Shown piece by piece: positions 23,620 through 41,050 of a DNA stretch of 64,000 bases. The translations under genes were made by a program, and so were the position numbers. A model generated the notes under the pieces. That model was not told the origin of the DNA. It made no database searches and saw only the letters and a list, made by a program, of their open reading frames with translations. The stretch's first letter is position 1, and each line of letters begins with the position of its first letter. Source of the DNA: Haloferax denitrificans ATCC 35960 (GTDB lineage: Archaea > Halobacteriota > Halobacteria > Halobacteriales > Haloferacaceae); NCBI RefSeq assembly GCF_000337795.1, contig NZ_AOLP01000002.1, positions 1-64,000 on the forward strand. Reading direction: 5' to 3'.

Positions 23620-24810
23620 TCACTTCAACCATGATCGTGTTCGCTCCCACATTGACGCAGATTCCGTGTCAGGATCTTCATCCTGGTCACGCGGTGCTAC
23701 TTCGACACGCTGCTCAAGCCGGTCAACAGTCGCTTCCAACTCCTCGATGTACGCCTGTTTTTCCGCGAGGGTTGCCTCGAGCGTTTCAACTCGCTCAGTC
23801 AACACCCGGTTCTTCTCGGCGAGATACGCCTTGTCCTGCGTTGATTGCGTTCCCACACTCTGTTCCGTCGTAGTTTCGTGGTCCTCACGAGGCTGCGTGT
23901 CTGGGTCGTAGAACTCCGACGTCTGCTGGACTGCTCGCTCAAGTGTCTTCTCACCATATGTCGACCCGTCTGCATAGTGGACTTCGTCCCATTTCTCGCG
24001 ATACAGCCCCGATTCCCGAAAGAGGCGGTCCATCTGTGGGTGGTCCCCGCCCGTCCAGAACGCGAGCAGACAGCAAAGTGCCATATCTGCCTCCGAGTGG
24101 CTCTCATACCCACTTGTCTGCCCTCGCCACAGTCGATCGAACTTCTCACCGTTCGCTGCTTTCCTCGCTTTTGTCAGCACAACCTCGTCGTTGAGGGCAG
24201 GCTCACTCGCGTCATCGCGTTCTGCGGATGGTGTTGAGCTCGGTGGCTCCGTTGTCGGCTCGGTGTCGGGCTGGACGTATTCACGATGGACGTCAACAAG
24301 TGCATCCTGCCGGTGTGCGATCTCTGTCGGCGTCCCCGCAACGTGAGCACCGGTTACTGTAAAGAAGCGCGCTGTATCGTAGCACTCGACTCCTCCACGG
24401 CGATTCCGCCCTGCAGGGAGTTCTCCTGTAACGAGGATGTGGAAACCCGTTCCCGATGGCGACACCTCCGTGTAGGAATCTAGCTGTGTGATTATCGCCT
24501 GTGCGTCGTCGTCAATCGTACCCGTCTCAGGGTCTCGACAGTCGTCTAAATCCACACCGACAAACGGGTCGTCATCGGTGAACACAAACCCAATCCCATC
24601 AGCGTCGTCTGACTCGACGGCCGCAACCGCAGTATTGAGATCAGCCCATGTCACGGAATCGGTTGCCGAACCGAAGCCGCCAGTCGCAGGGTTGACGGGG
24701 ACCTTCGTCGCTTTGTCATCTCGCATCTCACTCCGCCAGCAAACCCACTGCTCACGCTCGCGAAGTTCGGGTGGCAGCTGGTCTATATCGAGGTCAATTT
24801 CATCACACAT
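23620..24810 (-). CDS. PrimPol-like replication protein (NrS-1-type)
   Basis: 396 residues. The N-terminal archaeo-eukaryotic primase fold has DGIGFVFTDDDPFVGVDLDD (metal-binding DxD) and YTEVSPSGTGFHILVTG (sGxGxH). A linker rich in T, P and E follows. Residues about 225-300 match the helix-bundle domain of NrS-1-like phage polymerases (ESHSEADMALCCLLAFWTGG, then DRLFRESGLYREKWDEVHY and GEKTLERAV). A coiled coil at about 325-375 (LAEKNRVLTERVETLEATLA) and a basic tail close it. Likely primes and/or copies plasmid DNA. A 10 bp repeat array lies directly upstream. Confidence 0.85.
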   Translation of the reverse strand: MCDEIDLDIDQLPPELREREQWVCWRSEMRDDKATKVPVNPATGGFGSATDSVTWADLNTAVAAVESDDADGIGFVFTDDDPFVGVDLDDCRDPETGTIDDDAQAIITQLDSYTEVSPSGTGFHILVTGELPAGRNRRGGVECYDTARFFTVTGAHVAGTPTEIAHRQDALVDVHREYVQPDTEPTTEPPSSTPSAERDDASEPALNDEVVLTKARKAANGEKFDRLWRGQTSGYESHSEADMALCCLLAFWTGGDHPQMDRLFRESGLYREKWDEVHYADGSTYGEKTLERAVQQTSEFYDPDTQPREDHETTTEQSVGTQSTQDKAYLAEKNRVLTERVETLEATLAEKQAYIEELEATVDRLEQRVEVAPRDQDEDPDTESASMWERTRSWLK

Positions 24811-24919
24811 TCGTTGTTCCTCGCTGATTCGCAGTCATCTCAGAGTCCAAATACGTCTGCATTGTCTGGTCACTTTGACAATACCCAGTTCCGACGGGGT
24901 CCCCCCTGTCTATACTAGT

Positions 24920-25042
24920 CGGATTCTGTCGTAACCGACAATCCGAATCTGTCCAAAATACACCGTTCAATCCCGCTATTATCCGAATTCTATCGTAACG
25001 GCTGTCGTAACTCTGGATGGGACTATCGTAACCTGTCGTAAC
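24920..25042. repeat. CTRTCGTAAC repeat array upstream of PrimPol
   Basis: Five same-orientation copies of CTGTCGTAAC or CTATCGTAAC at 24926-24935, 24990-24999, 25002-25011, 25023-25032 and 25033-25042. The first lies within a nested dyad (CGGATT 24920-24925 with AATCCG 24940-24945, and GTCG-TAAC-CGAC inside). The remaining spacer 24811-25127 has no gene. The array could be an operator for the PrimPol gene or an iteron-type origin. Confidence 0.8.
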
Positions 25043-25127
25043 CATCCGTCTGAACACTCCTTTAACCGGTTTCTGGCTGAATCGGCCGTTGTTCGTCTGA
25101 CCGGGGACAAACGCTGACAGACCAGTA

Positions 25128-28100
25128 TCAGTCATTAGACAATTCCTCCTGAGTGAGGGCGAGCCCATCGTAATGACGAGTTGTGGCATTCCCGTCTTTC
25201 TTGACCGTGCTATCGAACTCGACGTGCTGTCTCAGCCGGCGTGTGAACCACCGCTTTGAATCCGGTGAAAGCCCCTGTTCAGTCACCCACGACTGATAGC
25301 AGTTGTAAACCCGTTCAGAGGAGACAGATCCGTGGGCTGTCTCACGGAGGAACTCCTCTGCGAAGCGGCCCACAACAGCATCAGGGTCGTCTGCAAGCTC
25401 CGATACGTCGACCAGAGACTCGTCCGACTCGTCTGATGTGGGGGTTGCGGCTCTTTCGGCCACTGCGGTATTGGATCGGGTTGGCTGTGCGACGAGATCC
25501 AGCTCCGAGAGGTCACTCAAGGGCCGTACTGTGCCGTCCCGATAAATTACTGCGTCACCGTCGTTCCGAAGAATGACGATAAGATACTGCTCACTACTGA
25601 ATCCTGGATACAGCAGTTCATCTTCGGGGACGAATGGCCGCTTGAGCTTAGTCCAGTCAGCAGTAAACGCCTCTTTCGAGTCGTAGACATACTGCTCGCC
25701 CTCCGCGTAGACGACGTACTCATCGGCCACCGAATCATAGCTGTAAACCGCAGGCAGTCGGCTCTTCGAGAGTTCGTCTAATGACTCAACTCGAAGCAGT
25801 TCACCCCCAGCACCGTCTTCCAAAACAAGATCCCCATCGACTCGTGACCAGATCGTCTGTGCGCTCTCAGGCGACACGGGTCGAAGTGCCGTCAGACCAC
25901 CCTCCTCGCTCGCACCACCATTGAACGAGATCGTTGTATCAGTCGTATAGAACCGCGTGTCTCCTGACTGGAGTTCACGAAGCGGTGGCGACAGCACCTG
26001 TTCGACACGTTCTGCCCAGTAGGGTTCCGGCTCACCAGCCCGAACGACAAACATCGGGATTTCCCCCGCCTCCTGTGCTTTGCGGAGGTTCGTGAGGACT
26101 TTCGCAGGCTTCCCTGGCGTTGTCGTCTCGACCTCGATGGCAAACGGAGCGTCAAACGCAGGGTGCGTCGCACGCCCATCCGGTTTCTCGCTCCCGTCTT
26201 GGCTGAGTATCGATACTGTACAGCCATGGGTCGTCAGTTCTGCTTCGATCTGTGCAAGAGCAGCGTCATGCTTCGAACTACCAGCAGATTGGACTGCCCC
26301 AGTGTCGGGGGTAGCAATCGCTTCGCCCGCTTCAGTAAGACGAATCACGAGTTCGTCTTGGTCGAGGTGAACCGTCGTTTCAAGGAAGCGAGAGCGCTGG
26401 CGAATCGTCGATAGTTCGTCGTACGTCGGTGCATCACCACCTGATTCGTCACACAGACGGCGGAGTTCATCATCAACGGTTTCGACTGAAACCCAGCCGT
26501 TTGCCTCACGTTCGGACAGCCGAAGTTGCACCGCTCGAACGACTTTCGCAAGAGCCGTGTCGAGTTCCCCATCAGTAATGTCAAGCGTGGTACTGAGTTC
26601 GTCGGGGAGTTCTGTCGCCGGTGCCTCAGTCGTGGTCACGCCGTACGTCTCGTCAACGCGGCCCTGCATCCGACTGAGCGTCTCACTAAACCGAGACTCT
26701 TCACTTTCGGTAAGAGGACGGTCGCTCTCAGGATGCCCATCCGGAATCGGCAGCGGAGCGAGACTGAACGGATACGGCCCAGTCTCACCGAAGATCGGAC
26801 TTGGAAGATTCGCAATCCACTCACCACGCGGAAGTGACCGGATTCGGTTCGCGAACGCTGTTGGGTCCATTTCCTCGTGAGCCATCGCCCTAGCGAGCTC
26901 ACGGTCAACGTTGATCTTCCCCACAATCGGACTCCCGATATTGTTGAGGACGTTGAGATAGGCGCGCCGCCCCCCTTCCGCTTTCATTTGCTCGGGGAAC
27001 TGCATCGAGAGCCCGACTGACAGCCGGAAACTCCGCCCTTGCTCGAGTAGTGTATTCATGACATCCGAAACAGCAACCGACGCTGCCTCATCAATCAGGA
27101 GATTAACCACGTAATCGTCCGGCCGCTTACCGACATCCTGGTTCTCTTCTTTCAGAGCGTCCTCGAGGTTGGTCAGAATCACACCGGTCATGACGCGAGC
27201 AGCATCCTCACGGAGATCACCCAGATCAAAGAGAATCACCGTATCGTCGTCGATGACATCGCGGAAATCAAACCGTGGCTCGGTGTTGTTGAAGATTCGA
27301 CGCAGGTGTGTGTCATCCGAAATAACTGAAAGACGATTGCCGACACCACCCAACACATTCGAGAAGGTCGTCTTGTCTGCCTGTAACTGTCGTCGGAGTG
27401 ACCGCGAGACAGCCTCGTCACTCGATTGCGGGGCAGCACTCAGATCTGGCTGGGGTGGCCCTGCCTGCCAAAGTTGATCAAGCGCATACTCTAACTGCCG
27501 ATGAGCGAAGTAGTCCGCTGACTCGCGATACTGGCCGTTTTCGCGACCATGCGTCTCATCGAACAACACTTTGATCAGCGACTTAATCAACCCAGGTGCG
27601 ACTGTCGCCCGCTCGTAGCGGTCAACCCCCATAACGAGTTTCAGAATTTCCTCGTAGTGGTCGGCCTTTCGCTGGACAGCGTCTTCCCGCCGGAGTCCGT
27701 TTTCAAGCGACGGCTCGAGATTGAAAAACGAGAAGCCGGGGAGGACGTCTGGGAGAGAGAAGTAGATAACATTCTCTCTGAGGTCGTCCAAGCCGAAACG
27801 CGCAGCATGCGCACGCATGTAGTTCTCCGCCATACCGTCGCCCTTCGGTTCGATGAGAATCGACGGCCCAGTCGTCGTCTCGTAGAGTGAGAGGAGTTCA
27901 TTGATCTGTGCCTTGGACTTACCGGCCCCAGTCGTCCCAAACCGGCCATAGTGTGTCGGTAACAGTCCGGGAGGTATTCGAGTCGGTTGCTTCTCCGCTT
28001 CACCAGTCTCATCAAGCGCGTAGCCGATTGCCATGCCCTCACGGAACTCGCTCATGAGATCCGGATTCGGACGGGCAAGCGGGTTCCGGCTCTGTTGCTC

Positions 28101-29486
28101 AGCACGCGTCCCACGAGAACCCTCCATTGTCAATCGTTCCGACGAAGGGACAACCACGAAGTTCGCAAGCTCGGCCCCACAGAGAACCAACTCCGGCCGG
28201 GTCTTACCACGTCCAGTCGTTACCTCTCGCGAAAGGAGTCGCTTGAGCGCTGCTCGCGCGTTTTGTTCTTTCTTCGATTGTCGGAAGCCACGGTCTCGAA
28301 GTCGCGTCGCTTCGATCTCGTAGAACGGGCCGTCGAGTGGGTCAAAGACCGGCGCGAGTGACGACAGGCGGTCATCAAGGGCGTCGCGACCAGCCTCACT
28401 CGTTGGTACACCAATCGCCCGGATATTCGTCGTGTACGAGCGCTTGGGATTGACCGCATCAATCGCGTCAAGTCGCTTGACGACGATGTCACTCAACTCG
28501 TCACGAGTCCGCCGCTCATACTCTAGTTCGGGGTCAAGTAGGTCGCCAAGGATTTTCTGCGAGAGCGTGTCCCGTCCATCATTCAAGTCCTCTTTGCGGA
28601 GTTCCGCATCCGCTTGCCAACTCTCCCGGCGCTGAAACACGACTTGGAACGCGAGCGGTTCGCGTGCATCATTCAGGTGGTCGATCAGCGACGCAAGCAC
28701 AGCTCCCGGCTCGTCGACCGCTGGCAGCGTGCTCTCGTCGGGCGTCGCAGTCAGCGGTGTCAACGACGACATCCAATCCTGCTTCCGAACTGCCGACCCA
28801 CACCACCGCACGCCCTGTGGTGAAACGGTGTCGACCGCGGGGCGGGCGAGAATCGTCCCGTCTGCGGCTACTGTCGGCTTCTCGACCGACGTGGGTGGAA
28901 CCTCGTCTGCTAGCGAATCAGTCGTTTCGAGTTCGACAACTGTCTCTCCAATCGACACCAGTCCGTCCGCCGTTCTGCCGCCAACCTCGTCGGCAACGTC
29001 CGTCGGTGAACCCTCAGACTCGTGTACAGCGCTTTCGCCGCCGTCGGGCGTCGCATCCGCGTCGGCGTCGCCATCTGCAGCCGAATACTGTTCGTCGTCG
29101 GTGAACTCGTACTGCAGGTCACCCTGCTGGTACCGCTCGACAAATTCCTCGTGAGACAATGCGACCGGATGAATCAACTTCGACGCGACGTCCACCTCGA
29201 CACGCTCGATGTCGAACGTCTTCGGATAGATCGACCGAAGTCTCTCTTCGAGTGTGCCGAGATAGTCGTCGGCTCCATAGTAGAACTCAACCGGCGCGTC
29301 TTGCCCCGTACTGAGTGCGAGGAACTCGAAGCACGGTGGGGTCGCGGATGTAAACGGGTTGAGTTTCGACCACAACCCCGAGCTGTCAGGAGTCAGTTTG
29401 TGGAGACTCTCGATCGTCTGCGGGATGCCGCGGGCTGTGAGTTCCTCTGAGGTGGGCGTCACGCGAAGATACGCACGCTCAGGCAT
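25128..29486 (-). CDS. Conjugative coupling-type ATPase (TraG/HerA-like) with extra C-terminal domains
   Basis: 1452 residues from the ATG at 29484-29486, chosen because GGAGGT lies seven nt upstream. It overlaps the VirB4-like gene by eight bases. The N-terminal 500 residues include an acidic linker (about 130-200). The P-loop FGTTGAGKSK lies at about 516-525, the Walker B NLLIDEAAS near 800, followed by the sensor-like GLSMQFPEQ. The region around 1050-1120 (EKPDGRATHPAFDAPFAIEV, then ETTTPGKPAKVLTNLRKA) resembles a PD-(D/E)XK fold. A winged-helix-like end (YNCYQSWVTEQGLS) closes the protein. It would pump DNA through the secretion channel encoded upstream in the operon. Confidence 0.85.
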   Translation of the reverse strand: MPERAYLRVTPTSEELTARGIPQTIESLHKLTPDSSGLWSKLNPFTSATPPCFEFLALSTGQDAPVEFYYGADDYLGTLEERLRSIYPKTFDIERVEVDVASKLIHPVALSHEEFVERYQQGDLQYEFTDDEQYSAADGDADADATPDGGESAVHESEGSPTDVADEVGGRTADGLVSIGETVVELETTDSLADEVPPTSVEKPTVAADGTILARPAVDTVSPQGVRWCGSAVRKQDWMSSLTPLTATPDESTLPAVDEPGAVLASLIDHLNDAREPLAFQVVFQRRESWQADAELRKEDLNDGRDTLSQKILGDLLDPELEYERRTRDELSDIVVKRLDAIDAVNPKRSYTTNIRAIGVPTSEAGRDALDDRLSSLAPVFDPLDGPFYEIEATRLRDRGFRQSKKEQNARAALKRLLSREVTTGRGKTRPELVLCGAELANFVVVPSSERLTMEGSRGTRAEQQSRNPLARPNPDLMSEFREGMAIGYALDETGEAEKQPTRIPPGLLPTHYGRFGTTGAGKSKAQINELLSLYETTTGPSILIEPKGDGMAENYMRAHAARFGLDDLRENVIYFSLPDVLPGFSFFNLEPSLENGLRREDAVQRKADHYEEILKLVMGVDRYERATVAPGLIKSLIKVLFDETHGRENGQYRESADYFAHRQLEYALDQLWQAGPPQPDLSAAPQSSDEAVSRSLRRQLQADKTTFSNVLGGVGNRLSVISDDTHLRRIFNNTEPRFDFRDVIDDDTVILFDLGDLREDAARVMTGVILTNLEDALKEENQDVGKRPDDYVVNLLIDEAASVAVSDVMNTLLEQGRSFRLSVGLSMQFPEQMKAEGGRRAYLNVLNNIGSPIVGKINVDRELARAMAHEEMDPTAFANRIRSLPRGEWIANLPSPIFGETGPYPFSLAPLPIPDGHPESDRPLTESEESRFSETLSRMQGRVDETYGVTTTEAPATELPDELSTTLDITDGELDTALAKVVRAVQLRLSEREANGWVSVETVDDELRRLCDESGGDAPTYDELSTIRQRSRFLETTVHLDQDELVIRLTEAGEAIATPDTGAVQSAGSSKHDAALAQIEAELTTHGCTVSILSQDGSEKPDGRATHPAFDAPFAIEVETTTPGKPAKVLTNLRKAQEAGEIPMFVVRAGEPEPYWAERVEQVLSPPLRELQSGDTRFYTTDTTISFNGGASEEGGLTALRPVSPESAQTIWSRVDGDLVLEDGAGGELLRVESLDELSKSRLPAVYSYDSVADEYVVYAEGEQYVYDSKEAFTADWTKLKRPFVPEDELLYPGFSSEQYLIVILRNDGDAVIYRDGTVRPLSDLSELDLVAQPTRSNTAVAERAATPTSDESDESLVDVSELADDPDAVVGRFAEEFLRETAHGSVSSERVYNCYQSWVTEQGLSPDSKRWFTRRLRQHVEFDSTVKKDGNATTRHYDGLALTQEELSND

Positions 29487-31683
29487 CGTCGGTACCTCCA
29501 AGTTGGTCGGTGTCAGTTGCTGTTGAATCAGTCTGCATGTCTTGTGACTCTCCGTTTGCTTGCTGCGCTAACTCCGTCCGAAAGGTCTCAATATCCTCAG
29601 AGACTGCCGTCCCACCAGCTCCGGGGAGCGACGCCCGGCGCTGCTCGGTCGGATCGAAGTCGATGACTTCCTTCTCTTTTGGCATCGCTTCGACTCTGAT
29701 ACCACGCCATTCGCCGTCGACGCCAACGAGTGCCTCAGAGAAGCCGGCGTCTTCGTTCCCGGGAACCGCATCCTGTACGTACCGCATCTGGGCGTGATTC
29801 AGGCCGAACTCGTCGGCCCACTCAGCGTCCATCCCATCCAGCCGATGGAACTGCTTGACGGCACACTGGTCGAGGATAGCCTCACTTTCAGCGTGCTCGA
29901 AGAACTCGTCGACGGTCTGGGTGACGAGTCGAATCGAGAGGTCGTGGTGGCGATGGTGTCGGAACACCGTTTCGAGGAACGCCAGACTCGCGGCGTCCTG
30001 CATGATGTACCGCGCTTCATCGATCACGAACACGACCTCTTTGTCCGTCTCTTTCGCTCGCTCGTAGACGAGCGAGATGAGGAGTTGCATCGTCAGCGCC
30101 GTACTGCTGTCGACGCTGCCTTCTTGCTGGGCGAGGTCGAGATAGATGACTTTCTCGTCACGGATGTCGAACTCCGATTCTTTCCCGAGGTTCGCGTAGC
30201 GGCCTGCGTCCTCGAAGGGCCGCAGTTGGTCGATCAACCACGTCGCATCGTCGCTAAGTTTCTCGGCTTCCGCATCCGACCGGACGACGAACGACTCGGG
30301 GTCGTCGACCATTTCTTCAAAGACGTCCAACATGTCTCGAATCGTCGGGCTCGGGTTGCCGTGTGTCGTGATATCATCAGTAATGCCATGACGCTCGTAG
30401 GCCTGTCTGAGACCGAGTTCGAGCGTCGTTCGCCGGTCGCCGAGTGAGATGCCACGGAGAGCGAAGAAATTCGTCAGGAAGCTCATCGCGTCGTCGAGTT
30501 TCTCGTTGAACGGACTCGCGTCCTCACCCATCGCCCGCTGGACGTGTTCGGGCGTCTGGCGGATTTCGAGCGGGTTTAGTCCGAGCGTCCCACCGACGGT
30601 AATGCGCTTGGCATCGAGCGCTTCGGAGACGCCCGCCCAGTTGTTGAGCGGTTCGAGAATGATCCCGATGCGGTCCTTGCTCTGTTCGATCGACCGGATG
30701 AAGTTCTCTTTCGCACCGAACGATTTGCCAGAGCCCGTGTCGCCGACAGTAAACATCGCATAGCCGTTATCGCGGGCAAACGGGTCGATGACGACCGGAC
30801 TCTGATTGTCCTTGTGAATCCCGAACTCGACGCCCCCTTCTTCGAGAATCGTCGCGTTGTGTGGCGACGCTAAGAGGGAACCAACAGCACCGCCGAGGGC
30901 AATCGACTCCCGACCAAAGACGTTGTCGCCGATTGGGGCGGCGGACTGGAGCGCGAGGTCCTGCCGGCAGATAGCCGTCTTCGGCGTGAGGTTCGCCGGT
31001 TCGTCACGGAGCGCGCTTTTGACTGCTCTGACGGCATCTCGGAGGTCGTCCGTGTCGTCGGCGCGGACGGTGACGAATAGCCCTTGGTCGAACACACTCG
31101 CACCGCTCTCGACGGCCTTGTACGTCGCCGCTGCCTCGTTGGCTCGCTCTTGGAGGTACTCACTCCGGACGCTCTGTTCTAAATCGGCGTCGACCTGCAG
31201 GTCGTCAGCGATATCCTGCAGTTCGTTTCGCGCTCGCTGTTGGTTCTTCGGCGTGATGTGCGCCGTGAGGTCGAACTCGACGTCGGTCAACTCGAAGAGG
31301 TCACTCAGGTAGCCGTCATTCGGGTAGTCGGCGTAATCAGCGATGTACAGCGTCGTCGTCCATTGCTCACCGACACGGGCAGTTCGTGTCTCCCATTCGA
31401 TTGCCGCCGGTGCTGTCGCCGTCTTGTGTGACTCCGAGATGTCGTCGAGGAGTTGACCTTCCGCGTCACCCGCTTCGAGGGTTTCCTCGTCGAGGACATC
31501 CGAAAAGTCGACTTCCGGCTCGTCGTCGGTGCGGTACCGCTGCCAGAGGACTGTCCCACCGACGCCGAGGAGCATGATGATCCCCAGATAGAGCGCTGCA
31601 CCTTCGGGGGATGTCGGCTGTTGAGCCCACTGGGTGAGCTGCGTGAGAATATCACGACTCGCCTGCAACGGGAGATTACGCAT
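29479..31683 (-). CDS. VirB4-like secretion ATPase
   Basis: 734 residues. One membrane segment near the N-terminus (ALYLGIIMLLGVGGTVLW, 30-47). Residues 100-290 resemble the VirB4/CagE N-domain. Walker A GDTGSGKS is at 314-321 and Walker B VVFVIDEARY around 550-559, then HRHHDLSIRLVTQTVDEFFE (sensor region). The family powers assembly of type IV secretion channels and pili at the membrane. Starts within the last codons of the preceding gene (8 bp overlap) and itself overlaps the coupling ATPase, so the three are translated together. Confidence 0.9.
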   Translation of the reverse strand: MRNLPLQASRDILTQLTQWAQQPTSPEGAALYLGIIMLLGVGGTVLWQRYRTDDEPEVDFSDVLDEETLEAGDAEGQLLDDISESHKTATAPAAIEWETRTARVGEQWTTTLYIADYADYPNDGYLSDLFELTDVEFDLTAHITPKNQQRARNELQDIADDLQVDADLEQSVRSEYLQERANEAAATYKAVESGASVFDQGLFVTVRADDTDDLRDAVRAVKSALRDEPANLTPKTAICRQDLALQSAAPIGDNVFGRESIALGGAVGSLLASPHNATILEEGGVEFGIHKDNQSPVVIDPFARDNGYAMFTVGDTGSGKSFGAKENFIRSIEQSKDRIGIILEPLNNWAGVSEALDAKRITVGGTLGLNPLEIRQTPEHVQRAMGEDASPFNEKLDDAMSFLTNFFALRGISLGDRRTTLELGLRQAYERHGITDDITTHGNPSPTIRDMLDVFEEMVDDPESFVVRSDAEAEKLSDDATWLIDQLRPFEDAGRYANLGKESEFDIRDEKVIYLDLAQQEGSVDSSTALTMQLLISLVYERAKETDKEVVFVIDEARYIMQDAASLAFLETVFRHHRHHDLSIRLVTQTVDEFFEHAESEAILDQCAVKQFHRLDGMDAEWADEFGLNHAQMRYVQDAVPGNEDAGFSEALVGVDGEWRGIRVEAMPKEKEVIDFDPTEQRRASLPGAGGTAVSEDIETFRTELAQQANGESQDMQTDSTATDTDQLGGTDDA

Positions 31684-32797
31684 TGAACGCCTCCTCCCGG
31701 CGTGAGCGACTGAAAATTGGCTGTTCGCGAATCACGTCTGCTTCGGCCTCGAAATCGTGTTCCTCGCCGTTCCAGAAGTCCATGTTCAGAACGAACAACT
31801 CGACCGTGCTGAGTCGGTGGGCAGACCAGCCGGAGGCCTGCTGGATGAACTCGGAACGGACGTCTGTGATCCGGTCATCGAGCTTTTCGAACATCTGGGC
31901 GCGGCGTTCGACGTCGGAGAGGTCCTCTCGTCGTGTGACGAACGGGTTGAACAGAATGCCAATCACGGGGAACTGCGTCAGCTTTTCAGCCGGCGTTCCC
32001 TCGTCACGGTATCGGTCGTAGACTTCGAGTGGCGAGACTTCCACGCCGATGTAGTACCGAACTTGCTGAATGCCGCGGTCACGCATTTCTTTGGGCCGCG
32101 TCTCCCGATACTCCTCGAGGAGTTCCCGGAAGATCGGGTTCTGTGTGACGTCCTCGTCGGTGAGTCGCTCCTCGATTGTCTCGGTGATCTGTTCGACCGG
32201 GAATGACCGGGTTGTTGCGTGGAATTTGAGCTTCGAGTCGAGTTCTTTGTTGGCGAACTCGGCGCCGGCATCCTGGAGTTGGGCCCAGTCGTCGGCCATC
32301 GCGAAGTCCATGTTCCCCGGGTCGATTTCGATGAACGCCTCCATCGCGCCGTCAGTCCGCTGAATCGCGCCGGCGCCGGGCCACGCTCGCTCGATATTCG
32401 TCAGGTCTTGGGTTCGCTCGTCCGGCGTGAATGGCGTGTAGTTCGCGAGTCCGCCCTCGTTGCGCACGGTCTCGTTCGTCTGGCTGTCTGGCTGGGCTGG
32501 CGCGCTCAACGTGATGCGGGGCCGTTTGGCGTAGCGATAGACGTCTTTCGTCCAGGTCCACGCGTTCAGATGGTCGGGGGTGACGTAGACGATGGCTGCG
32601 CCCATCCCGAGGCCGCTTGCGATAAGCGGGACGGCGAGTGATTCAATGCCCGTGAGGCCGGCGAGGAGCAACCCACAGATGGGGAGAGCGATGAGGATGC
32701 CGACGTCACCTTCTTCGATGTTGAGGTAGGGGATGCGACTCGCTTCGCCGAACTGGTCCATGATGCGCCGAGCGGCTGTGTCTTGGTCTGTCGACAT
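31676..32797 (-). CDS. VirB3/VirB4-N-like membrane protein of the conjugation system
   Basis: 373 residues. Two adjacent hydrophobic segments (VGILIALPICGLLLAGL and LAVPLIASGLGMGAAIVYV, about 32-70) are followed by a cytoplasmic domain of about 290 residues that looks like the N-domain usually fused to VirB4 (MEAFIEIDPGNMDFAMADDW, RQVRYYIGVEVSPL-like). This VirB3-plus-N-domain split from the ATPase fits its position immediately before the VirB4 gene. It starts two nt after the TrbL-like gene ends. Confidence 0.75.
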   Translation of the reverse strand: MSTDQDTAARRIMDQFGEASRIPYLNIEEGDVGILIALPICGLLLAGLTGIESLAVPLIASGLGMGAAIVYVTPDHLNAWTWTKDVYRYAKRPRITLSAPAQPDSQTNETVRNEGGLANYTPFTPDERTQDLTNIERAWPGAGAIQRTDGAMEAFIEIDPGNMDFAMADDWAQLQDAGAEFANKELDSKLKFHATTRSFPVEQITETIEERLTDEDVTQNPIFRELLEEYRETRPKEMRDRGIQQVRYYIGVEVSPLEVYDRYRDEGTPAEKLTQFPVIGILFNPFVTRREDLSDVERRAQMFEKLDDRITDVRSEFIQQASGWSAHRLSTVELFVLNMDFWNGEEHDFEAEADVIREQPIFSRSRREEAFNA

Positions 32798-32799
32798 AG

Positions 32800-33861
32800 T
32801 TAGCGGGTTCGAGGTTCGTTTTCGGTCCGCCGGTACGATGGCAGTCCGTCGCTGTCATCAGTCGAGTCACGCTGTGCGGCTGCTCGCTGGGCGAGGGCTT
32901 GACCGGCGGCGGCTTTCGGCCCCCACCGGGCGGCGGTTGTCGCGACGCCAGCACCACCGACATACGCACCGGCTGCGACGCCGCCGACGAGGGCTGCGCC
33001 TCGCGTTGCACCACCAATCACCTTCGCGGTGAGGGGTGTCGCGTACGTGAACGTCTTCCAAGTGAGATAGAGCGCGATTAGCGGAAGTGACGTTGCTACA
33101 AGATACCTCAAGAATGGACTACTTGGAGCAAGAGCATTCTGTGAGAACAGTAGGTCGTACCCTTTGAATACGACTGCTGCAGGGAGAGGAAGAACTGCAA
33201 GAGGAACAAACCGTTTGCTGAACCCAACTGCGATATCAGAGATGACCGGGAGGTTACCGTAACCGAGGGCGAACGCAATCGGCATCCCATACACGTAAAC
33301 ATAGATGAGAACTTCACGGATGTAATAGAACGCCTCGAGAGACCACATTGACAGTCCGCCAGCAACGCCGAATAAAAAGGCGAGAACTGGGTTAGTTAGC
33401 GACACCTCTAGAAGTTCGAACATCGTGTCTCCAAGTGAACTCAGACTCGGCATTAAGGCGATCGTGAAACCGTCAACGAGGTAGAGGGACAGAATACTAA
33501 CCCAGTACCAAGATACGATGAGGAGCGCACCAACCCACGCAGTTTTCTTAGTGCGTCTTGCCTCGTACGCACTCCCGATATTGAAAATTCGGAGCGCATG
33601 ACGCCCCTGAACACACATTACCAACAACAACAGCGAGATCAGCATAATCTCACCGCCAACTAAAGCGTCTTGTATCGCAGGCCACGGCCCATTAGACGCT
33701 GTTCCAAACACAATCGGCCCATCAGTACGTGGAGTCGGAGTTCCAAACATACCCTCCGTGAGAGACTGATATCCAGTTCTCAGACCCCGCATGAACAGGC
33801 CAGTCAACCAGCTAAGCGCCTCTTTGAATCCCTCAAGTACAACGTCAATTAGATCAACCAT
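32800..33861 (-). CDS. VirB6/TrbL-like polytopic membrane protein
   Basis: 353 residues with about six membrane segments: IMLISLLLLVMCVQG, TAWVGALLIVSWYWVSILSL, FLFGVAGGLSMWSLEAFYYI, VLIYVYVYGMPIAFALGYG, VPLAVLPLPAAVVF and YLVATSLPLIALYLTW. A glycine/alanine-rich C-terminal stretch follows (GATRGAALVGGVAAGAYVGG). This is the VirB6/TrbL pattern of the inner-membrane channel platform. The C-terminal coding part is GC-rich like its neighbours, while the rest is visibly AT-richer, suggesting a recombination junction near 33.06 kb. It overlaps the lipoprotein gene by eight bases. Confidence 0.78.
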   Translation of the reverse strand: MVDLIDVVLEGFKEALSWLTGLFMRGLRTGYQSLTEGMFGTPTPRTDGPIVFGTASNGPWPAIQDALVGGEIMLISLLLLVMCVQGRHALRIFNIGSAYEARRTKKTAWVGALLIVSWYWVSILSLYLVDGFTIALMPSLSSLGDTMFELLEVSLTNPVLAFLFGVAGGLSMWSLEAFYYIREVLIYVYVYGMPIAFALGYGNLPVISDIAVGFSKRFVPLAVLPLPAAVVFKGYDLLFSQNALAPSSPFLRYLVATSLPLIALYLTWKTFTYATPLTAKVIGGATRGAALVGGVAAGAYVGGAGVATTAARWGPKAAAGQALAQRAAAQRDSTDDSDGLPSYRRTENEPRTR

Positions 33862-34726
33862 CGTGCTCTCCGATGGAGATACTGCAACCCTCAGTACTAG
33901 TCGAGTCTGTATACTGAACGTTGTAGGTCTTAGACACCTCAGAAGCAGCTACACGTGTTTTGAGGATGAGGTTGAACTCACCACTCTGCTCCCCGTCTTG
34001 ACACGAGATATCTGAACCGGGAACAAAAGCGAACGGAGACCGGAAGCTGTAAATCGTGAGTTGCTTCCCGGCTGGAATAATAACTTCAGCTACTTCAGAG
34101 TCAGACTCGGGGTCATAGATCCCACTAACATCGTCATGGTTGGCGTAGTTCGTCCCCTCTTCATCGGAGGGATACGGAACGTCTCCGATGAAGAGTAATT
34201 TCGTGACTGCGTTTGGCCCCGTTCCACGGTTCTCAACAGTCACAAACGCCTCATCAGTAACTTCGTCACCCGAAGAGTTCCACATCTCCTCTGGCTGATT
34301 TCTCCCAATCCCCATCTCGACGATTCTGAGGTCCGGTTGAATCGAAAGAGAACCCTCAGCAACAGTCTCCTCACCATCTAACGCGACGATACGGTACTCA
34401 CCAGGCTCGTAGGCAGTCCCGATTTCGAACGAAACCTGTCGTGCGCCGGCGGCAAGCCCACGCTTCCCGAACAGTTCCCCATTCGGCTGAATGAGGTTCA
34501 CCTGTTCAACGGTCGCGTCAGCATCAACTTCCACAACGATGGCTTGCTCCTCAACAGCGATGCGTGAAAGCGGGCCTGCACGCTCGGTCGTTGCCGACGT
34601 CTGGTTGGGCGTCGTCGTGTCCGAGTTACGGCTACCATCAAGGCAGCCAGCGACGCTCGCGAGTGCGGCCCCGCCGAGTGTTCGGAGGACGGTACGTCTG
34701 TCAATCGGTGAATCGGTTGGAATCAT
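33854..34726 (-). CDS. Tat-exported lipoprotein of the conjugation operon
   Basis: 290 residues. Twin-arginine signal DRRTVLRTLGGAALASVAGC ends in a lipobox with Cys28, the usual export route for haloarchaeal lipoproteins. A T/S-rich linker (DTTTPNQTSATTE) leads to two beta-sandwich-like units (VEEQAIVVEVDADATVEQVN and VTDEAFVTVENRGTGPNAV), the second like CARDB-type surface domains. No enzyme motif. Coupled by ATGA to the gene before it. A surface component of the pilus or channel is likely. AT-richer than the flanking genes. Confidence 0.8.
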   Translation of the reverse strand: MIPTDSPIDRRTVLRTLGGAALASVAGCLDGSRNSDTTTPNQTSATTERAGPLSRIAVEEQAIVVEVDADATVEQVNLIQPNGELFGKRGLAAGARQVSFEIGTAYEPGEYRIVALDGEETVAEGSLSIQPDLRIVEMGIGRNQPEEMWNSSGDEVTDEAFVTVENRGTGPNAVTKLLFIGDVPYPSDEEGTNYANHDDVSGIYDPESDSEVAEVIIPAGKQLTIYSFRSPFAFVPGSDISCQDGEQSGEFNLILKTRVAASEVSKTYNVQYTDSTSTEGCSISIGEHDG

Positions 34727-36459
34727 TGGTTTCGGTAGTAGCTATCTGTCGGTCCAAACATGCGGAGGAGCCGGCGACCGGCGTAGAACGTCACGACGAA
34801 CGGAATCGCCTGCCAGCCGACTTCGAACACAAACGCAACCCAGCCGTCGAGAGTCCCGAGTGGGTGCCAGCGAACGGAGGCCGTGTCGCCCACATATGCT
34901 GGGTCGTGGCCAAGCCACGTGCCGGGGTGGTAACGGACCGTGTAGATCCCCGGCTCGTCCAGTGTGACGACTGCGACGCCACTCTCGTTGGTCTCAACGC
35001 GCTGGTCACCCACCGTGATGTAGCCGCTGTGTGACGGCCCGCCAATCGGGTACTGTCGGTCACTCCCATTCGACGCGATTGGCGCACCCGTCTGGTTATC
35101 GCGCAACTCAACTCGAAGCGTCGCGTTCGACGTCGTCTGCGAAACGAGCTCAACAGAGAGGTTACTCTCGCGAAGCTGTCGCGCCGACCCGACTTGGGGG
35201 TCGACAATCGTGGCATTCACGCCGCGAACGATCCCGCCTACCCGAAGCGCCTCCCGGTCGACGGACTCTGCACGGACGGCCAGCCCGTACGTGGGCGTGT
35301 ACGACTGGTTGACGACTTCGACAGTCACGTTCTCGCCGATCGTCTCACGGGGTGACGCCCGGTCAGCCCCCCACGTGTCGATGATATCCGGTCCATCACG
35401 AACGGGCTCTGCTCGCGGCCCGATCTGCGAGGGATACGCGTGAACCCTCACGGGAATCGCATCCGACTGTTCCGTAGTTGTCGACGTCCCGGTCGACGTA
35501 ACGAGTGTGTCCCAGTTCGTGTTGCGAGCGGTGTAGAACCGCCACACACCACGGACTCTGGAGGTCTCATCGTCGGTGAGCGTATAGCCCTGCCACGGCC
35601 GGGACTGGAAAATCGCGACGCCAGTATCCCCGTTTGGGTACTGCGCGTAGTAGGGGTACGCCGCGAGGTCGTAAATCTCGGCATCGAGTGTATCTGAGAC
35701 GGTTCGTGTCTCCGTCCGGTAGTTGACTGTTGCCTCGGATTCGCCACCAACCGTCGTCTCGACGGTCTTCTTGAGGCGGACAGAGATGGTCGCTTCGAGC
35801 GTGAGATTCGCGCTCCACGAGTGAGTGGTGTGATACTGTAATTCTGGCGTGTGAGTGCCAGCAGTCGAGGCAACGGTGATGCCATCGATTTTCAGACGGG
35901 TGTTCTCAATCTCGTGAGAGACGAGTGCCCAGTCGACGGTCTGATTGCCCGTTTCGTTCCCGGTTGGAACGCGAACACGATAATCGACGAGGCCACGAAC
36001 TGTCCCGTTAGGAGCGATATAGAGGGGTGTCTCACCTGCATCGAGATGGCCACGCGTCGATGGGGTGACTGCGAAAATCGTCGCGTGCGCATCGTCGATG
36101 AACGTCCCATCTTCGAGTGACGCATGAGGCGGGTAAGTCGACGTGTCGGGCCCGCCGGCGTCGAGATCAGCGAAGTCGTTGCGCGTCCACGTTGCGGCCG
36201 TCGCCGGCGGGCGCGTGAACGTAATGTCAGTCCCGTTGGCGAGTTGGTGGAGTGCCGTTCGGTCGTCGCCGTACTGCTGCTGGTAGGCCTGTTGGCTGAC
36301 GTAGCGGTCGCTATCGCGAGACCAGAGCGTTGCCGACTCGTTTTCCGTGAGGCCGTTTGTCTCAGTCCCTGGTCTCGGGGGCTGTGCCGTGGCGAGGCCG
36401 ATAATGGAACTCGACACGAGCAACGCGGCTACCAGTACGGAGGGTACTCGATGCTTCAT
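34723..36459 (-). CDS. Large secreted membrane-anchored protein of the conjugation operon
   Basis: 578 residues. A Sec-type signal (VLVAALLVSSSIIGLATAQP) opens it. The long exterior part is beta-rich with many N-glycosylation sites (NGT, NET, NQT, NLT) and an Ig-like end (SGYITVGDQRVETNESGVAV). One C-terminal membrane helix (GWVAFVFEVGWQAIPFVVTF) is followed by a short basic tail RRLLRMFGP. It resembles haloarchaeal surface proteins encoded in conjugation clusters. It may contact the recipient cell or support the pilus. Coupled to the lipoprotein gene. Confidence 0.75.
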   Translation of the reverse strand: MKHRVPSVLVAALLVSSSIIGLATAQPPRPGTETNGLTENESATLWSRDSDRYVSQQAYQQQYGDDRTALHQLANGTDITFTRPPATAATWTRNDFADLDAGGPDTSTYPPHASLEDGTFIDDAHATIFAVTPSTRGHLDAGETPLYIAPNGTVRGLVDYRVRVPTGNETGNQTVDWALVSHEIENTRLKIDGITVASTAGTHTPELQYHTTHSWSANLTLEATISVRLKKTVETTVGGESEATVNYRTETRTVSDTLDAEIYDLAAYPYYAQYPNGDTGVAIFQSRPWQGYTLTDDETSRVRGVWRFYTARNTNWDTLVTSTGTSTTTEQSDAIPVRVHAYPSQIGPRAEPVRDGPDIIDTWGADRASPRETIGENVTVEVVNQSYTPTYGLAVRAESVDREALRVGGIVRGVNATIVDPQVGSARQLRESNLSVELVSQTTSNATLRVELRDNQTGAPIASNGSDRQYPIGGPSHSGYITVGDQRVETNESGVAVVTLDEPGIYTVRYHPGTWLGHDPAYVGDTASVRWHPLGTLDGWVAFVFEVGWQAIPFVVTFYAGRRLLRMFGPTDSYYRNQ

Positions 36460-38897: not shown

Positions 38898-39009
38898 GAA
38901 GGACTTCCATGGCTGTAATCTGCTCACGTTTTAGACTGGTCTAAGCAGATAGTACCGCTCTCGTATTGTACATACCAGCCCGTCATGATGGTTGGTTGAG
39001 ATACCGGTG

Positions 39010-39453
39010 TTGCCAGTACTGCCAGTAACCAGTCCACTATTGCCAGTAAACCTGGCATAAGCGTGGGAACTCCCGAGACCAGAGGGGCAGATTCGTTAAA
39101 GGTTTGTTCTCGGGAGACCCCCGTTGCCAGTACTGCCAGTATTCACTTGTTTTAAATATCACACACACACCACATTTGCCAGTAAAGCCACTCGAACGAG
39201 TAGAAGACTACTCGTTACAGTACTGATTAAGCGATAGGTTTATGTCAATAGTAGTAAAACCAAACCCTTACTAGGAAATAATCAGTAAAGTACAACTGTA
39301 GATATAGTTCGGTAGCTCTGTTAATTACCTCATTTTGGACTTCGGTCCTCACCTACGAGAGAATACTGGCAATAGTGGAGAGAGTGTCTTTTATAAGCTA
39401 CCGTGATATTGGCGGTACTGGCAACGGGGGTGTGGTTATTGGTCATACTGGCA
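39010..39453. other. Candidate replication origin, upstream arm (iterons and AT-rich core)
   Basis: Forward TTGCCAGTA-type iterons at 39010-39018, 39020-39027, 39040-39048, 39124-39132, 39134-39141 and 39176-39184. Reverse TACTGGCAA at 39364-39372, 39416-39424 and 39446-39453. The two sets face each other across an AT-rich stretch (39185-39363). Two copies carry the longer 15 bp form CCACTATTGCCAGTA (39034-39048; reverse 39364-39378). The Orc1/Cdc6 gene starts directly after. Opposed initiator sites around an unwinding region are typical of archaeal origins. Confidence 0.8.
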
Positions 39454-39491
39454 CCCGTGGTTTTATCACACATAGCAACATCGTCCAATCC

Positions 39492-40748
39492 ATGGGCCGG
39501 TTCACTCGGGAGTCATTCATCATTCGAGACAACGACGTGTTGCGAGACGATTACCAGCCTGAGACTCTTGAGGAACGAGACGCTGAACTCGACGAATACG
39601 CGGCAGCCCTCCGGCCGGTAATTCAAGGATGGCAGCCGAACAACGTGTTTCTGTACGGGGTCACGGGTGTCGGGAAGACTGCGGCTACACACGATCTACT
39701 CAAAGAACTTCAGGAATCAGCTGACCAGTACGACGACGTCGACGTGAATATTATCGAATTGAACTGTACTGGCTGCAACACGTCGTACCAAGTCGCGGTG
39801 AACCTCGTGAACGAGATTCGAGAGCCGAATCACCCACTAACAAATGTGTCGTCTTCACGGATGCCGATCAGTGAGACTGGCTATCAACAAAAGCGCGTGT
39901 TTCGTGAGCTCTACGCTGACTTAGAAGATATTGGGGGGACCGTGTTGGTTGTCCTCGACGAGATTGATAACATCGGATCGGACGATGATATTCTGTACGA
40001 GCTCCCGCGGGCACGTTCACAATTGGATCTGGACGTGAAGTTGGGCGTCATCGGCATCAGTAACGACTTCAAATTCCGCGATAATCTGTCCCCGAAAGTT
40101 AAAGACACACTTTGCGAGGAGGAGATTTTGTTCCCGCCATACGATGCTGGCGAACTCCAAAACATCCTCCGCGAGCGAGCAGAGATTGCGTTGTATGATG
40201 ATGTGTTGGAAGATGATGTGATTCCGTTGTGTGCCGCGTTTTCAGCACGAGACTCTGGATCGGCTCGGCAGGCACTTCGACTGTTGCGGAAGGCAGTCGA
40301 TATTGCGGAGTCAGAAGCGCGGGCCGGTGGAGACGCGTTTGTAACAGAGGAACACGTCCGCGAGGGGGAGTTCCAGATTCAGCGCCAGCAGGTCGTTGAA
40401 GGAATGCACTCGTTGACACAACATGGGCAGCATGTGTTGTTGACGGTGTGCCAACTGGCGGCTCGAGGAGAAACGCCCGAACGGACAAAGGCGATCTATC
40501 GCCGGTACCAGAAGGTTGCGAGGAAAAATGGGCAAGAACCGTTGAAGCGTCGGCGCGTACATGACCACCTGTCGGATCTGAACCTCCATGGTGTGTTGCA
40601 GTTGGTTGACTCGAGTGGCGGCCGAGGAAACTACAACGAGTACGATTTGGACGTGTCGCTGTCGTCGGCGTTGGATGCACTAGAAAGTGAGTTTGGGAAT
40701 TTAGAAGGCATCCGTGAACTTGCGAAAAAGAACGGGACGTTAGACTAG
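39492..40748 (+). CDS. Orc1/Cdc6 replication initiator
   Basis: 418 residues from the ATG at 39492 (MGRFTRESFIIRDNDVLRDD). An upstream ATG at 39375 would translate the iterons and is rejected. AAA+ core: FLYGVTGVGKTAA (Walker A 56-63), VLVVLDEIDNI (Walker B DE at 156-157), sensor 1 GISNDFKFRDNL, and arginine-rich SGSARQALRLLRKAV (sensor 2). A C-terminal winged helix (RKNGQEPLKRRRVHDHLSDL, then NLHGVLQLVDSSGGRGN) binds origin DNA. With its own flanking iterons this is a self-contained replicon. It recruits the MCM helicase. Confidence 0.95.
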   Translation: MGRFTRESFIIRDNDVLRDDYQPETLEERDAELDEYAAALRPVIQGWQPNNVFLYGVTGVGKTAATHDLLKELQESADQYDDVDVNIIELNCTGCNTSYQVAVNLVNEIREPNHPLTNVSSSRMPISETGYQQKRVFRELYADLEDIGGTVLVVLDEIDNIGSDDDILYELPRARSQLDLDVKLGVIGISNDFKFRDNLSPKVKDTLCEEEILFPPYDAGELQNILRERAEIALYDDVLEDDVIPLCAAFSARDSGSARQALRLLRKAVDIAESEARAGGDAFVTEEHVREGEFQIQRQQVVEGMHSLTQHGQHVLLTVCQLAARGETPERTKAIYRRYQKVARKNGQEPLKRRRVHDHLSDLNLHGVLQLVDSSGGRGNYNEYDLDVSLSSALDALESEFGNLEGIRELAKKNGTLD

Positions 40749-40776
40749 CCCCCTTTTCTTGCGGGGTGACCCTCGC

Positions 40777-40930
40777 TGCCAGTATTGCCAATAACCTGTC
40801 CACTGTTGCCAGTTTCACCTGTCGATGTCGAGTTTACTATTGTATCTGATATCTGTGAGATATTGATTAAACCACTATTGCCAGTATATTTGATCCTCTC
40901 TATGTCTGCCGCTTTTACTGGCAATAGTGG
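40777..40930. other. Iterons downstream of the initiator gene
   Basis: TGCCAGTA 40777-40784, TTGCCAATA 40785-40793, TTGCCAGT 40806-40813, TTGCCAGTA 40878-40886 and reverse TACTGGCAA 40916-40924. The last two extend into a perfect 15 bp inverted repeat CCACTATTGCCAGTA (40872-40886) / TACTGGCAATAGTGG (40916-40930). Same motif as the upstream arm, so the initiator gene sits between two binding regions. Confidence 0.8.
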
Positions 40931-41050
40931 TGTGTCTGACGAATTATCTGATGACTGATTTGATTTGAATATTTTAGATCAATTGATAGGGTGATTGGAA
41001 AATCGTGACTTGTTGGAATTTTTGCTCGCTGATTGTTTTCTGTAGCCGTA

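Follow-up and report, generated by a model that had tools for sequence, protein, structure and literature searches.

Sequence comparison across haloarchaeal genomes revealed, in the intergenic gap upstream of a primase-polymerase (PrimPol) gene of Haloferax denitrificans ATCC 35960, an array of short repeats (iterons) followed by a conserved 32-nt core, and this region is probably an oriT/clt-like transfer origin of a putative haloarchaeal conjugation module. The window, by which we mean the whole 64-kb stretch of DNA analyzed here, lies on a contig of 159.6 kb (G000:C2); at this locus the genome is closest to Haloferax gibbonsii, H. prahovense, and H. marisrubri. The gap (24811-25127, 317 bp) lies between the PrimPol gene (23620-24810, minus strand) and the upstream gene (25128-29501, minus strand); a first-pass annotation had described it as gene-free and directly upstream of PrimPol, which the ORF coordinates bear out. 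On the minus strand the order runs from VirB6-like and VirB4-like genes through a VirD4-like coupling protein (CP), the iterons, and the core to PrimPol. The first-pass annotation had correctly recorded the repeats, a dyad, and PrimPol, and had overlooked the core and the neighboring CP. The features of the locus are as follows:

23620..24810, minus strand: NrS-1-type PrimPol, with a helix-bundle domain (HBD) at about 23902-24099, a coiled coil, and a conserved C-terminal tail
24891..24922, minus strand: conserved 32-nt core CCGACTAGTATAGACAGGGGGGACCCCGTCGG, consisting of a motif and a hairpin; proposed strand-initiation or nick site
24919..24946, strand not assigned: Haloferax-type nested dyad TCGGATTCTGTCGTAACCGACAATCCGA, around the core-proximal iteron
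24926..24935, minus strand: core-proximal iteron, GTTACGACAG in gene sense
24990..24999, minus strand: iteron 2, GTTACGATAG
25002..25011, minus strand: iteron 3, GTTACGACAG
25023..25032, minus strand: iteron 4, GTTACGATAG
25033..25042, minus strand: iteron 5, GTTACGACAG
25128..29501, minus strand: VirD4/TraG-like CP, 1457 aa, with a C-terminal D5/P4-type winged helix
25146..25385, minus strand: CP winged helix, which is proposed to read the iterons; its fold resembles the RFX DNA-binding domain and the P4 origin-binding domain
29479..31683, minus strand: VirB4-like ATPase
31676..32797, minus strand: conserved transfer-cluster gene without a family match
32800..33861, minus strand: TrbL/VirB6-like membrane protein (PF19590, 3.1e-129)
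33854..34726, minus strand: transfer-cluster gene without a significant family match
34723..36459, minus strand: transfer-cluster gene without a family match

In the mechanism that we propose, a CP hexamer would dock on the iterons of its own plasmid via the winged helix and start pumping DNA into the secretion channel. The core next to the array has a TAGTATAG motif and a hairpin that recur across plasmids; a strand would be started there, most likely by PrimPol acting as a site-specific primase and possibly after a nick by a nuclease. DNA carrying the array and the core alone could then ride along with a helper.

The arrangement of CP, iterons, core, and PrimPol is kept in over 100 haloarchaeal loci. 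A search with the pattern AACCRACTARNATA returned 109 matches in 83 of 392 Halobacteriales genomes, compared with about 21 for the reversed control, and most of the matches examined had a CP upstream and a PrimPol downstream. Among the 181 PrimPol loci that lie away from contig edges, the core was present at 69 of the 84 with a CP and at 2 of the 97 without one (Fisher p ~3e-32); the latter group includes the 74 PrimPols on viral contigs, none of which has a core. The 15 CP-linked PrimPols without a strict core mostly carry a near variant with 1-3 mismatches, in some cases with a compensated stem (e.g. ACGAC/GTCGT). A 419-kb Halarchaeum plasmid possesses two secretion modules with one core in each. 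With two cores on this two-module plasmid and standalone copies on islands and on a chromosome, the site goes with the conjugation module and not with the replicon; the counts above tie it to the CP and not to PrimPol in general.

The core is laid out as CCRAC-TAGTATAG-GGG...CCC-GTYGG, and relatives display a nearly invariant version, AAAACCRACTAGTATAG..GGG..CCCGTYGG, after their arrays. Across 62 distinct 32-nt cores, positions C2, A4, C5, A7, and A10-T11-A12 are unchanged, which is partly forced by the search pattern, and all five pairs of the outer stem form in 48. Stem pairing in this set amounts to 0.87 and falls to at most 0.51 when the partners are slid by 1-3 positions, while stem pair 3-30 changes jointly from A-T to G-C in nine of the cores. 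A Natrinema-type subgroup lacks the outer stem and has other hairpins downstream, as identified by eye. The core was not matched in the phage records searched, and a scan of viral contigs with a 14-mer core motif returned 112 unclassified stretches. In the window specifically, TGTCTATA resembles the R388 nic region, a likeness given no weight as evidence.

All five copies of CTRTCGTAAC reported by the first-pass annotation are exact and clustered in the gap, and they make up half of the ten exact copies in the genome (3.83 Mb searched), falling inside 117 bp. The nested dyad of the same annotation is likewise present in the window, but none was seen in other lineages. Its sequence, TCGGATTCTGTCGTAACCGACAATCCGA, was computed to fold as a hairpin; since the dyad overlaps the core by 4 nt, the two hairpins would be mutually exclusive. 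We rejected the dyad as the key feature, as it was not seen in other lineages and the conserved hairpin is that of the core. As to the earlier suggestion to look for the same repeats before PrimPol homologs, arrays do occur in the gaps of relatives, but their sequence is lineage-specific (GTTACGGCA, TTCCACCCA, TGTTCAGGG, TGTCCAGG, and others). Arrays stood above all six shuffles at 110 of 121 cores, and the core-proximal 9-mer recurred upstream 1.6 times on average, compared with 0.07 in shuffled sequence and 0.10 across loci, with the recurrences occupying slots common to loci.

The last part of the CP matches the Pox_D5/P4-type primase C-terminus (Pfam/NCBIfam) and was predicted to adopt a winged-helix fold (pLDDT 79). 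Structural comparison of the predicted tail revealed similarity to the RFX DNA-binding domain (Z 11), with the P4 origin-binding domain (1KA8, Z 9.0) as the third-best fold match. In loci with different iterons the CP tails (last 110 aa) are 30-33% identical, although these loci share the same core class, a PrimPol that is ~89% identical in the catalytic domain and 94% in the HBD, and a CP body at 76-84%; with matching iterons, the tails are 78-97% identical. The DNA identity profile delimits a swapped cassette of ~700 bp that begins inside the CP tail and stops at the core; identity is ~95% before it, roughly 40-65% within it, 85-98% at the core, and 83-98% from there on. These alignments show the iterons and the C-terminal winged helix of the CP to have been exchanged together as a cassette ending at the core. 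Because CP tail and iterons are neighbors, linkage alone is an alternative explanation for their joint exchange. The recognition-helix residue at the bracketed position of WFxR[x]L further varies with the iteron: it is R with TTACR (16/16), K with TTCCACCC (24/25), TCCANG (14/14), and TTCAGGG (17/17), and S with GGTCAGGG (4/4), a rule with one exception (locus L215) among loci that are phylogenetically non-independent. TTACR iterons go with RR across several CP backgrounds. From the joint exchange and this co-variation we infer that the iterons are recognized by the winged helix of the CP.

The primase assigned to the NrS-1 type in the first-pass annotation was indeed found to be of that type. 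It combines an AEP domain bearing DxD and SPSGxGxH motifs with an HBD; its family profile matches NrS-1 primase structures at E ~1e-52, and Pfam matches the NrS-1 HBD at 5.8e-32. Priming by NrSPol requires S108-P109-S110, R249, K251, and Y261 (PMC8718748), and alignment revealed that these residues are kept in the window PrimPol as S117-P118-S119, R271, K273, and Y285. The architecture and priming residues of the phage primase-polymerase are thus shared, but the window PrimPol has a C-terminal coiled coil and tail in place of a helicase domain. Most cores carry, on their bottom strand, a loose echo (TTGGTT) of the NrSPol recognition site, TTTGGTTA (PMC8718748), but the window does not. The PrimPol C-terminus (window 23620-23850), comprising the coiled coil and a terminal SMWERTRSWL-like motif, is kept in most relatives, and the terminal tail is possibly a docking or membrane-binding element. 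Further PrimPol-like genes, 52-54% identical, occur in the same genome (G000:C1:172772-173713 and G000:C17:262068-263015).

PrimPol is missing downstream of the CP, iterons, and core on the Halococcus dombrowskii plasmid NZ_CP095006.1 (G101; L345/L458, L459) and in one further genome; the priming step is therefore the least certain part of the mechanism. In both cases a different primase-HBD-coiled-coil protein is encoded away from the site, and the Halococcus plasmid carries other large primase-like genes of this makeup. In a relative (L030), PrimPol and HBD belong to a single protein of 758 aa, whose long C-terminal region reads as a D5-type helicase with a winged helix. This protein would be the fused form of what is split in the window, which suggests that the coupling ATPase may have replaced the helicase here.

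Seven copies of the array and core were found without a CP or PrimPol in the flanks fetched, although in one of these (L209/L348) the array is weak; a further locus, L461, is followed by a PrimPol fragment and was left out of the set. The neighbors of the standalone copies are ordinary genes, among them an oxidoreductase, a TFIIB-like factor, and a subtilase. When six standalone copies, two of them related, were compared with their nearest T4SS-associated copies, the iterons and the core were each 94.8% identical and the spacers 69.3%, with core conservation partly selected by the search pattern. In two species (L432 and L434), only ~377 bp (93% identical) around the standalone site is common and the flanks mostly differ, as if the site had moved alone.

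Retention on a degraded locus is displayed most clearly by pHG4 (H. gibbonsii ARA6), a 35,465-bp plasmid with its own Orc1 and ParA on which no secretion genes were annotated or found. It keeps decayed remnants of the CP (68.5%) and PrimPol (65.3%) next to a site in which the five iterons match at 49 of 50 positions, the core at 32 of 32, and the spacer at 176 of 235 (74.9%; p ~6e-8), and a second Haloferax contig repeats the pattern. As read from sequence conservation, this shows the array and core to have been held by selection on DNA that lost both flanking genes. The site on pHG4 has therefore persisted although neither PrimPol nor the CP is functional in cis, as a helper-dependent mobilization site would.

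The same observations bear on the proposal of the first-pass annotation that PrimPol starts replication nearby and that the array is a second vegetative origin, at which PrimPol would initiate plasmid copying. The iterons, hairpin, and primase do resemble the origins of P4 and RSF1010 (PMC4234260), and PrimPol is NrS-1-like. However, the element tracks the CP and not PrimPol, occurs twice on the two-module plasmid and once on a chromosome, and remains intact on pHG4 where PrimPol has decayed; moreover, pHG4 and the window each have their own Orc1. In the window, many ORB-like TACTGGCAATAGTGG repeats lie on either side of the orc1 gene (39375-40748, TIGR02928; whole region 39000-40934). This is a clear Orc1-type origin, and with it as the vegetative origin the locus at 39-41 kb explains plasmid copying well. 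We therefore consider a second vegetative origin unlikely. A PrimPol-tied cis site of the initiation type survives from the earlier proposal, as do two separate systems, but probably not as two vegetative origins, and what it had envisaged as a fused replicon or an integrated conjugative element comes down to a conjugation module carried on a plasmid.

We find it very unlikely that the region serves as a PrimPol promoter with operators, at which the winged helix of the CP, or some different factor, would act as repressor and the core as BRE/TATA plus a structured leader. The core lies 104-143 bp (up to 152) before the PrimPol start in most loci, and TAGTATAG could pass as a TATA box, but array and core occur without an intact downstream PrimPol in nine loci, pHG4 included, and two CP loci keep both without a PrimPol. 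A role of the repeats as promoter operators only, which the first-pass annotation had named as grounds for abandoning its origin, is likewise disfavored by the standalone copies. Least probable of all is a partition, incompatibility (centromere-like), or dimer-resolution site lying in the transfer cluster by chance: iteron arrays are typical of such sites and standalone copies do sit on DNA without transfer genes, but no partition or recombinase gene was recognized beside the site in the window, the iterons change along with the coupling ATPase tail, and the ParA gene of pHG4 is ~9 kb away from the site.

The transfer origin proposed here combines traits of several known systems. Streptomyces TraB reads its TRS through a C-terminal winged helix, and here, too, a coupling ATPase with a C-terminal winged helix is encoded beside short plasmid repeats. 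TraB docks on the 8-bp TRS at clt and moves double-stranded plasmid DNA by itself (PMC4170104, PMC12857230). Unlike TraB/clt, the present locus includes VirB4 and VirB6-like genes, PrimPol, and an invariant hairpin core, and its winged helix is of the D5/P4 type; with these genes present and a CP motor that matches T4SS coupling proteins, it does not resemble a lone motor of the FtsK/SpoIIIE type. In the P4 alpha and RSF1010 systems, repeats are bound, a motor opens the DNA, and the primase begins synthesis at a site or stem-loop close by, the P4 protein binding its origin repeats by a winged helix (PMC4234260). Iterons, a hairpin, a primase, and a CP tail folded like the P4 origin-binding domain are common to our locus, but here the motor that bears the winged helix is a coupling ATPase for secretion, and the element goes with transfer genes instead of a vegetative replicon. 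As in relaxase-type oriTs, a conserved core with an inverted repeat and lineage-specific repeats lies beside transfer genes and also occurs standalone. In contrast to those sites, no relaxase was found: PF03432 had no match in the genome, and relaxase families none among 20 window proteins. MOB-suite called 132 of 134 related plasmids non-mobilizable, and no relaxase has been recognized in archaeal conjugative plasmids (PMC9905601, PMC12857230). It is conceivable, though doubtful, that conjugation here is relaxase-free and primase-driven, a replication-initiation module having been rewired for transfer with the winged helix on the coupling ATPase replacing the D5 helicase; PrimPol would then prime a new strand de novo at the core to replace the displaced one, which the ATPase would meanwhile export.

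A word search of the literature, covering few subscription journals, returned no description of this element, and no description of an archaeal oriT was found in the literature searched. Our comparison thus adds a conserved cis element, accompanied by a protein-DNA specificity rule suggested by co-variation, at more than 100 haloarchaeal loci. With this element, the way in which conjugative plasmids of archaea select and process their DNA becomes directly testable in Haloferax. The core and array may also help to flag archaeal DNA that is possibly mobilizable despite a non-mobilizable call in MOB typing, and they are a possible tool for DNA transfer between haloarchaea.
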